Shown: positions 9,291 through 11,750 of the stretch, piece by piece
Numbering within the stretch: position 1 is the first letter of the stretch
How the letters are laid out: every line of letters begins with the position of its first letter
Source of the DNA: Allostella vacuolata
GTDB lineage: Bacteria; Pseudomonadota; Alphaproteobacteria; ATCC43930; Allostellaceae
Assembly: GCA_006739055.1 (NCBI GenBank)
Contig: AP019702.1
Span: forward strand, 248,001 to 312,000
Length of the DNA stretch: 64,000 nt
Direction: 5' to 3'
The notes under the pieces: generated by a model
Seen by the model: the letters and a program-made list of their open reading frames with translations, nothing else
Database searches by the model: none
What the model was told of the DNA's origin: nothing
Program-made: the position numbers and the translations under genes

Positions 9291-10457
9291 TCACCGGCGC
9301 CGGTCCCGGCCGATCGCCCAGGGGATCAGCAGGCCTCCCAGGACCGCGGCCGCGACCAGGGTGCCGAGGGCGGCGCGCAGCCCTATGCCTTCCGCGGCAA
9401 ACCCGATCAGCGGCGGCCCGGCGAGCGCGCCCGCATAGCCGAACACCGCGACCATCGCCACCCCGGCCCCCGGCGCCACCCCCGGTACGCGTGCGGCCTG
9501 GCCGAACAGCAGGGGGACGATGTTGGCCAGGCCCAGCCCGGCCACGGCGAAACCGGCCGGCGCGAAAACGGGGTGGGGTACGGCGATCGCCAGCGCCAGG
9601 CCGGCGGCGGCCAGTGCCGCGGAGCCGGCCAAGGTCCGCTGCGGCCCGAAGCGGGCGGCGATGCGGTCGCCGGTCAGGCGTCCTGCGGTCATCGCCAGCG
9701 AGAAGGCGGCGTAGCCCGATGCCCCGGCGGCCGGGCTGGTGCCGACCCGCTCCACCAGATAGACCGCGCACCAGTCGATCAGCGAGCCTTCGGCGAAGAA
9801 GCCGAGCACCGCCAGGATGCCGAGGCGCAGGACCGGTCTCCGCGGCCGGGCGAAGCCGGCACCCGGCACCGCGGGCGGGGTTGCCACGGCCAGGTGAAGG
9901 TTGGCGGCACCGACCGCCAGGACCAGGGCGGCGGCCGCCGCCGTCATGGTGGCCGCGGGACCGAAGCCGCCGGCGATGGCCGCTCCCGCCGCCCCGGCGC
10001 CGGCCAGCCCGCCCAGGCTGTAGAAGGCGTGGAAGCCGGACATGATCGGCCGCCGCCAGGCCCGCTCGACGGCGGTCGCATGGGTGTTCATGGCAACGTC
10101 GAGCGCACCGTTGGCCGCGCCCAGCAGCAGGCAGGCCAGCATCAGCGTGCCCAGGCCGGGCGCCAGCGGCGGCACCGCGAGCAGGGCGGCGAAGGCGAAG
10201 CCGGCCGCCGCCACCGTGGGGCGGCTGCCGGCACGGACCGCCCAGCGCCCGACCAGCGGCATCGTCGCCACGGCGCCGGCGGCCATCATCAGCAAGGCCA
10301 GCCCCAGCTCGCCTTCCGAGAGGTCGAGGCCTTTCTTGAGCAACGGGATATGGGCGGCCCAGATGCCGAATCCCGCGCCGTTGGCGAAGAACACGGCGGC
10401 GGTCGCCCGGCGGGCGGCAGCAGGCCGGGCTGGGCGTTCGCGGAGCGGGCTGGTCAT
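9291..10457 (-). CDS. MFS transporter (YbjJ-like)
   Basis: This is a 388-residue membrane protein with about twelve hydrophobic segments. The N-terminal FFANGAGFGIWAAHIPLLKKGL and the loop VGRWAVRAGSRPTV after TM2 match the YbjJ-like branch of the major facilitator superfamily. A second half begins near RPVLRLGILAVLGFFAEGSLIDW. The start at 10455-10457 follows an AGGGGCGGG ribosome site. The substrate is unknown. Downstream on the same strand is the receiver-Hpt gene; upstream is the small-RNA region. Confidence 0.85.
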   Translation of the reverse strand: MTSPLRERPARPAAARRATAAVFFANGAGFGIWAAHIPLLKKGLDLSEGELGLALLMMAAGAVATMPLVGRWAVRAGSRPTVAAAGFAFAALLAVPPLAPGLGTLMLACLLLGAANGALDVAMNTHATAVERAWRRPIMSGFHAFYSLGGLAGAGAAGAAIAGGFGPAATMTAAAAALVLAVGAANLHLAVATPPAVPGAGFARPRRPVLRLGILAVLGFFAEGSLIDWCAVYLVERVGTSPAAGASGYAAFSLAMTAGRLTGDRIAARFGPQRTLAGSAALAAAGLALAIAVPHPVFAPAGFAVAGLGLANIVPLLFGQAARVPGVAPGAGVAMVAVFGYAGALAGPPLIGFAAEGIGLRAALGTLVAAAVLGGLLIPWAIGRDRRR

Positions 10458-10599
10458 CGGGCCCGCCCCTATAGCATGGGGGGCCCGGCTGCGGCGATCC
10501 TGCGGCCAATGCCAGGATCCGCGACCGGTGCGATAAATCACAGTTTCGCCGCAATCCGACCAAGCGACTGTCGCATTCCGGCATCACATTGCTACCTGT

Positions 10600-10711
10600 C
10601 GCAAGGACGGAACATCGTACCGAGCGACGGTTTCAACGCCTCCTTGGCGGCTTGAACGCTGCCGCTCCGGGCGGTCGCCGATCCCCCCTCGGCGGCCGCC
10701 CACCTTTTTTT
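10600..10711 (+). ncRNA. Candidate small RNA, copy 1, with UCCUU loop and intrinsic terminator
   Basis: The 5' end is a guess from where conservation with copy 2 changes character. A hairpin at 10630-10657 pairs CGCC with GGCG and extends through CAA/TTG, leaving UCCUU (10641-10645) in the loop, complementary to a Shine-Dalgarno sequence. A terminator follows at 10669-10711. A similar plan, C-rich anti-Shine-Dalgarno loops before an intrinsic terminator, is known in alphaproteobacterial trans-acting RNAs of the AbcR, CcsR/cuckoo and ar14 types. Sequence identity with any of these could not be checked. Confidence 0.6.
10669..10711 (+). terminator. Intrinsic terminator of small RNA copy 1
   Basis: A 13-base stem (10669-10681 with 10689-10701, one G-T wobble) closes a TCCCCCC loop and is followed by seven T (10705-10711). 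This is the clearest Rho-independent terminator in the window. Confidence 0.85.
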
Positions 10712-10945
10712 GGCGTGCTGCTTCAGGCCCTTGTGTGACAGGCGCGGCGACCGGGGCCCAACCCCGGCTCGCCGTCGCCGCGGCGGCGGAGGTTCTGCGG
10801 GAAGATCGGCCGGCAACTACCTGAAACCGGCCGGCGATCGGCCTCGGGCGGCCGTGCCAGGTTCATTCTGGCGCAATAAATACCACGATCTTGCCGCAAT
10901 CTGCCCCTGGACCTGTCTCATTCCTGCATCAGATATTCGCGGTCG

Positions 10946-11052
10946 CGAGGGCATCGAACATCCCCCAGCGACAGAACTCGACGCCTCCTTGGCAGCACCA
11001 CGACCCGCTGCCCCTCGGGCGGCTGCCGTCCCCCCTCGGCAGCCGCCCTTCT
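10946..11052 (+). ncRNA. Candidate small RNA, copy 2, with UCCUU loop and intrinsic terminator
   Basis: This is the second member of the pair. GCC (10983-10985) pairs with GGC (10991-10993), again exposing UCCUU (10986-10990). The terminator is a perfect 12-base stem at 11017-11028/11037-11048. The stem around the UCCUU loop is shorter than in copy 1, but the loop itself is unchanged while flanking bases differ, which suggests selection on the loop. The 5' end is inferred from the alignment. It ends about 30 bases before ccmA, so leaky termination would feed the ccm operon. Confidence 0.6.
11017..11052 (+). terminator. Intrinsic terminator of small RNA copy 2
   Basis: A perfect 12-base stem GGGCGGCTGCCG / CGGCAGCCGCCC closes the loop TCCCCCCT and is followed by TTCTCTT. 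The T-run is weaker than in copy 1. Confidence 0.75.
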
Positions 11053-11081
11053 CTTGCCGGTTTCATGCTATCAACCGCGCG

Positions 11082-11750
11082 ATGAGCGCATTCGCGGCCA
11101 GCCGCTTCACCGGTGCCGGGCTCGGTTGCGTCCGCGGTGAGCGGATCGTCTTCCAGGGGCTCTCCTTCGAGGTTGCCGGCGGCACCGCGCTGACGCTGAT
11201 CGGCCCCAACGGCGCCGGCAAGAGCAGCCTGCTGCGCCTGATGGCGGGGCTGCTGGCACCGGCCGCGGGAAAGCTGCTCTGGAATGGCGCGCCGGTCGCC
11301 GACGACCCCGACGCCCACCGCGCCCGGCTGCGCTGGCTCGGCCATGGCGACGGCATCAAGCCGGGCCTGTCCGCCCTGGAGAACGCCGCCTTCTGGGCCG
11401 CCCTGGCCGGGGCGCCTGGTGAGGCAGCCCTCGGCGCCCTGCAGCGGATGGGCCTCGGCCCCCTGGCCGAAACCCCGGCCCGCTTCCTGTCCCAGGGGCA
11501 GCGGCGGCGCCTGGCCTTGACCCGGCTCCTGCTGGGCGGCGCCGCGCTCTGGCTCCTGGACGAGCCGACGGTCGGGCTGGATGCCGGCTCGGTGGCGGTG
11601 GTCGAGGCGCTGCTGGCCGACCATTGCCGGGCCGGCGGCATGGTCGTGCTGGCGACCCACGTCCCGATCGCGGTGCCGGCCGGGCAGGTGCTGGAACTGA
11701 CCCCCGCCGCGGTCCCGCCTCCGTCCCATTCCCCCTCGCCATCGCCGTGA
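11082..11750 (+). CDS. ccmA: Heme exporter ATP-binding protein CcmA
   Basis: The 222-residue ABC ATPase powers the CcmABCD complex, which releases holo-CcmE after heme loading. Walker A GPNGAGKSS is at 41-49, the signature LSQGQ at 136-140, and Walker B LWLLDEP at 156-162, followed by a short H-loop region with THVPI. The length is typical of CcmA. The start ATG at 11082 lacks a strong ribosome site. It is the first gene of a nine-gene ccm run; its stop overlaps the ccmB start (GTGA). Confidence 0.95.
   Translation: MSAFAASRFTGAGLGCVRGERIVFQGLSFEVAGGTALTLIGPNGAGKSSLLRLMAGLLAPAAGKLLWNGAPVADDPDAHRARLRWLGHGDGIKPGLSALENAAFWAALAGAPGEAALGALQRMGLGPLAETPARFLSQGQRRRLALTRLLLGGAALWLLDEPTVGLDAGSVAVVEALLADHCRAGGMVVLATHVPIAVPAGQVLELTPAAVPPPSHSPSPSP

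Follow-up and report, generated by a model that had tools for sequence, protein, structure and literature searches.

Two predicted small RNAs in tandem upstream of ccmA in Allostella vacuolata, and a candidate RNA family of Alphaproteobacteria

In Allostella vacuolata two repeat units lie between a divergent MFS transporter gene and ccmA, with ccmB and a gene for cytochrome c assembly downstream of the latter. Do these units encode separate regulatory RNAs, do they form a leader of the ccm operon, or are they chance repeats without a function? They were analysed in a window of 64 kb (the whole stretch of DNA under study), in which unit A (10530-10712) and unit B (10875-11056) are direct repeats at an offset of 345 nt (spacing 345-347 nt). 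Both have the same plan, that is, a promoter-side block of about 50 nt, then a variable stretch and the invariant GCCUCCUUGGC, and finally a GC-rich terminator stem of 12-13 bp with a C6 loop (Table 1). Identity between the copies is 73% in the 51-nt promoter-side block, 89% in the CUCCUUGGC core and 85% in the terminator, in agreement with the original prediction of a tandem pair of diverged small RNA candidates that share promoter-side sequence and strong G+C hairpin terminators. The terminators answer to that description in both stems and in the strong T7 tail of A, but not in the U-tract of B, which is weak (TTCTCTTG). A search of the genome for dispersed copies found none beyond A and B. 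A leader peptide was rejected, as no conserved ATG frame was seen in the units by reading. The reverse strand of GCCAAGGAGGC was also rejected as the Shine-Dalgarno sequence of an opposite gene, since there is no suitable start near it and the conserved blocks reach well past it.

Table 1. Positions in the window of the two units, their parts and the flanking genes
Feature	Position	Strand	Remarks
MFS transporter gene, divergent upstream neighbour	9291..10457	-	PF07690
Promoter-side conserved block of unit A	10530..10599	+	Repeated in unit B; conserved in congeners
Upstream element AATCACAGTTTCGCCGCAATC, a probable promoter or regulator-binding site	10536..10556	+	Common to distant ccmA-upstream regions
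Predicted small RNA A	10600..10711	+	5' end putative; 3' end at T-run
CCUCCUU of unit A, anti-Shine-Dalgarno-like	10639..10645	+	Invariant in seven units; 3' five bases mostly unpaired
Terminator A	10669..10711	+	C6 loop 10683-10688, open; T7 tail; compensatory stem changes
Promoter-side conserved block of unit B	10875..10944	+	Repeat of A; conserved in congeners
Upstream element of unit B, version TACCACGATCTTGCCGCAATC	10881..10901	+	By alignment to the unit A element
Predicted small RNA B	10945..11055	+	5' end putative
CCUCCUU of unit B	10984..10990	+	Invariant
Hairpin GGCAGC...GCUGCC of unit B	10991..11012	+	Pair probability ~1.0; corresponds to first hairpin of model R2
Terminator B	11017..11055	+	C6 loop 11030-11035; weak T-tract; 12-bp perfect inverted repeat
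TGCTAT, likely -10 of a separate ccmA promoter	11066..11071	+	After terminator B in 3/3 complete congeners
ccmA, constant downstream neighbour of the RNA family	11082..11750	+	PF00005; CcmB and cytochrome c assembly protein next

In the collection the family of A. vacuolata comprises four genomes, all from a single genus. Both units are present in two complete congeners; in the fourth genome a contig end falls inside unit A. Sliding identity along the alignment with the two congeners gives two islands of conservation, at about 10541-10700 and at about 10881-11060, separated by DNA of low identity. The original prediction held that the loop is unchanged while its flanks differ; instead, the whole of GCCUCCUUGGC is invariant, and CCUCCUU is so in seven aligned units. 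In the terminator stem two pairs have changed on both sides with pairing kept. A tree places the A copies apart from the B copies with a support of 1.0, which indicates that the duplication took place before the three complete species separated; no tandem arrangement was seen outside this genus.

Compared with dinucleotide shuffles, the two candidate transcripts have more stable predicted folds (z -4.3 for A and -3.7 for B). The proposed anti-Shine-Dalgarno UCCUU loop is predicted to be mostly unpaired, but it does not form a conserved hairpin: for the GCC-UCCUU-GGC mini-hairpin the probability is 0.88 in unit A of the window, 0.59 in unit A of congener G002 and at most 0.34 in the other four sequences, and an alternative GGCRGC:GCUGYC stem just 3' of UCCUU is preferred in 4 of the 6 (0.64-1.0). 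A stem-loop around UCCUU was therefore rejected as a consensus. CCUCCUU is predicted to be mostly open in its 3' part, with an accessibility that differs among the sequences. The most constant exposed element is one that the original prediction did not include, the CCCCCC loop of the terminator, which is predicted to be open at 0.96-1.0 in all six sequences of the genus.

That the units are chance repeats with GC-rich hairpins and encode no functional RNA is barely credible; the two islands inside diverged DNA, the compensatory changes and the conservation of one locus across families all speak against it. The last of these was seen in part with profiles and covariance models. A scan of the class with R1, a covariance model built from six sequences of the genus, gave 17 weak matches outside the genus, of which three (G240, G127 and G200) lie directly upstream of ccmA. 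A profile made from the ccmA-upstream regions of 20 distant genomes, with no sequence of the genus in it, had just two matches in the 64-kb window: unit A at 10530-10723 (E 4.9e-10) and unit B at 10879-11066, the latter with an E of 0.059 that is not significant by itself. A profile from order relatives matched the promoter block of unit A. R2, a covariance model from seven order relatives, again without the genus, ranked A first (10598-10709, E 2.6e-5) and B second (10943-11056, E 5.5e-4) in the window, these E-values being rough. Four of its matches in the class (G155, G154, G245 and G082) are again immediately upstream of ccmA and in its orientation; of the approximately 28 matches outside the training set, by our estimate, far fewer than one would fall there by chance.

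Two sets of matches elsewhere were also recorded. R1 cross-matches another small RNA candidate in L060, L061, L063, L064 and L065 (~1501-1612), which has CUCCUCAA-type motifs and a C6-loop terminator. Both R1 and R2 match a C-rich candidate in G146 (C6:194617-194742, minus strand; L052/L253) which carries GACCUCCCCUC and a C7-loop terminator and lies between LysE-type and rapZ-type genes, not beside ccmA; it is perhaps a relocated relative. Further C-run-loop terminators or hairpins away from ccmA occur in L258 (G101), L256 (G164) and L263 (G312), and such loops may mark other small RNAs in the class. The locus of one relative also contains a SAM_alpha riboswitch (L051:50-128; RF00521, 69.7 bits).

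We read ccmA-upstream DNA from approximately 100 genomes. Terminators with a C-run loop are found in many of them, mostly 50-160 nt before the CcmA match. A CCCC loop is present in 28 of 36 terminators outside the genus versus 7 of 47 in control DNA and in none on the reverse strand (Fisher p 7e-9, a descriptive value, as the comparison was prompted by the pattern in these very data and not predicted beforehand). The upstream element AATCACANTTTCGCCACATTT, whose consensus was itself read from some of the scored regions, scores at least 15 in 21 regions, mostly 200-340 nt upstream, and reverse strands and shuffles stop at 14. It is clear in unit A and degenerate in unit B, where its score of 13 is within the range of the controls; unit A is its only convincing copy in the genome, and no other gene there was convincingly associated with it. 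Of 102 regions, 39 have a C-run terminator or the upstream element, including three regions from the genus, a count in which G049, G137 and G161 are doubtful and from which the candidates in G148, G154 and G245 are missing. Put roughly, about 35 of 99 sampled regions, from about 20 families, have a similar candidate. Outside the genus this is a single copy that combines the conserved element with C-rich hairpins and, as in both units of the window, an intrinsic terminator whose loop is a run of C. The fullest relatives are tripartite, with a stretch of the CCUCCCCUC type on the 5' side, a C-run-loop hairpin and a C-loop terminator, and Azospirillum melinis (L166) carries the candidate. A hairpin scan did not find the RNA in most of the other named loci inspected, including those of Acetobacteraceae, Rhodobacterales and Hyphomicrobiales. 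This looks like a family of RNAs at ccmA that is widespread in Alphaproteobacteria and has no name in the databases and papers searched. The two units would then be a duplicated member of it, a relationship that goes beyond the original prediction.

The constant position raises the question of whether the units are a cis-acting leader or attenuator of the ccm operon, in which transcription would start at one or both units and the terminators would set readthrough into ccmA. The units end at 10711 and 11055 on the same strand as ccmA, which starts at 11082; thus terminator B, with its weak U-tract, is only about 27 nt from the gene, and the family was always found here just before ccmA. However, terminator A is strong and complete and has a repeat of its own promoter block behind it, the terminators of other genomes end in strong T-tracts at a distance of 50-160 nt from ccmA, and the likely relative in G146 is away from ccmA altogether. 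In addition, all three complete congeners have TGCTAT after terminator B, an indication of a separate promoter for ccmA downstream of that terminator. Similar sites are present in other genomes, and TGYTAK is mildly enriched over all ccmA-upstream regions (9 of 33, versus 4 on the reverse strand). On balance we think a leader unlikely. The upstream neighbours vary among genomes by reading, from which it appears that the upstream element and the RNA go with ccmA.

The original prediction recognised no named family here, and the Rfam search bears this out, as no family reaches its threshold for either unit. The best match of both is ar7 (RF02342), at 23.0 bits for A and 16.4 for B against a threshold of 60; identity with ar7 was rejected on these scores and because 289 genomes of the class gave no match above the cut-off. 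Literature searches, whose coverage is incomplete, returned no named small RNA upstream of ccmA. The 6C RNA (RF01066) is known from Actinobacteria. It resembles the family in its hairpins with C runs in the loops, and relatives score 32-36.4 of 47 bits, below threshold, with no match for the units of the window themselves. CcsR1-4 are tandem small RNAs with CCUCC-type motifs; these 'cuckoo' RNAs have CCUCCUCCC loops, an RpoH-type promoter and a Rhodobacter locus, whereas the sequence here is CCUCCUUGG and the units have no Rfam match to such a family. The likeness to tandem sibling RNAs of the AbcR and CcsR plan, which had been put forward for this locus, is upheld for the predicted RNAs, with conservation, promoter-side sequence and terminators all present. 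AbcR1 and AbcR2 (alpha-r15) are tandem alphaproteobacterial RNAs of about 115 nt with unpaired CU-rich anti-Shine-Dalgarno motifs (PMC7143759), and the units are likewise tandem, with the CU-rich CCUCCUU in a region predicted to be mostly open. However, AbcR adjoins lsrB (the lsrB/vtlR locus) and the units are flanked by the MFS gene and ccmA; AbcR1 and AbcR2 partly match SuhB/mmgR (RF00519), for which the units reach 15.4 of 41 bits and their relatives at most 27.8. The units would thus work like AbcR-type tandem anti-Shine-Dalgarno RNAs but fail the score and locus tests for AbcR itself. A VtlR box (GCAT-N3-TG-N3-T; PMC7486931) was rejected in unit B, where the sequence, as judged by eye, departs from it at one base, a resemblance that other genera do not conserve. 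For the promoter block, PhoB-like and RegA/PrrA-like sites were weighed by eye only and are not claimed.

GsrN homologues outside C. crescentus are mostly near the general stress response genes ecfG/nepR/phyR (PMC5869019), unlike the units, which adjoin the MFS gene and ccmA, and PmaR occurs only in Agrobacterium and a closely related Rhizobium (PMC6234868). RusT is a short RNA with C-rich elements whose locus, lolA-rusT-xth (PMC11005374), differs from the one here. The candidate cross-matched by R1 in L063 and L065 is downstream of lolA, that is, in the locus of Caulobacter RusT (PMC11005374), and may be a RusT-like RNA outside Caulobacterales. The RNAs upstream of ccmA would be a new, unnamed family of a known kind.

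What would the two RNAs do? CCUCCUU is part of the standard bacterial 16S anti-Shine-Dalgarno sequence, and the simplest mechanism is therefore pairing with AAGGAGG or G-rich start regions. We consider it probable that the units encode two paralogous trans-acting small RNAs, separately promoted and terminated, that pair with Shine-Dalgarno or G-rich sites. This reading draws on the two islands, the compensatory stem changes, the matches by models built without the genus, the recurrence of matches upstream of ccmA, the enrichment of C-run loops, the shared upstream element, the invariant CCUCCUU, the open C6 loop, the T7 tail, the likely separate ccmA promoter and the lack of a conserved ATG frame. 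Against it we count the weak profile match and weak U-tract of unit B, the variable accessibility of CCUCCUU and the constant position before ccmA, which would also suit a cis role. The trans-acting pair would consist of RNAs of about 90-112 nt, each presumably transcribed from a promoter that carries the conserved upstream element and ending at the intrinsic terminator with the C6 loop. CCUCCUU, as an anti-Shine-Dalgarno mimic, and the C6 loop would pair with target mRNAs at AAGGAGG or G-rich sites, possibly with the help of Hfq, and would most likely block translation initiation; with a second copy, the pair could have targets in common or evolve apart. In the alphaproteobacterial small RNAs GsrN (PMC5869019) and PmaR (PMC6234868), C-rich loops were shown to contact mRNAs, with effects described as mainly positive, so repression is here only the more usual guess. 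Relatives have several C-rich loops in one short RNA, as would be expected of a sponge or decoy that acts mainly on proteins or on other RNAs and not by pairing with mRNA; that reading is very improbable, given the contacts made by GsrN and PmaR and the match of CCUCCUU to the 16S anti-Shine-Dalgarno core.

Small RNAs usually diverge beyond recognition between families. Here recognisable relatives in about 20 families mean that the RNA family can be named, modelled and tested, for example in Azospirillum. More tentatively, a class-wide small RNA long tied to ccmA might couple cytochrome c maturation or haem export to the translation of respiratory or haem/iron mRNAs, under a dedicated regulator that recognises AATCACANTTTCGCCACATTT. 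The finding points to a layer of regulation next to the cytochrome c maturation operon, one for which we found no description in the literature searched.
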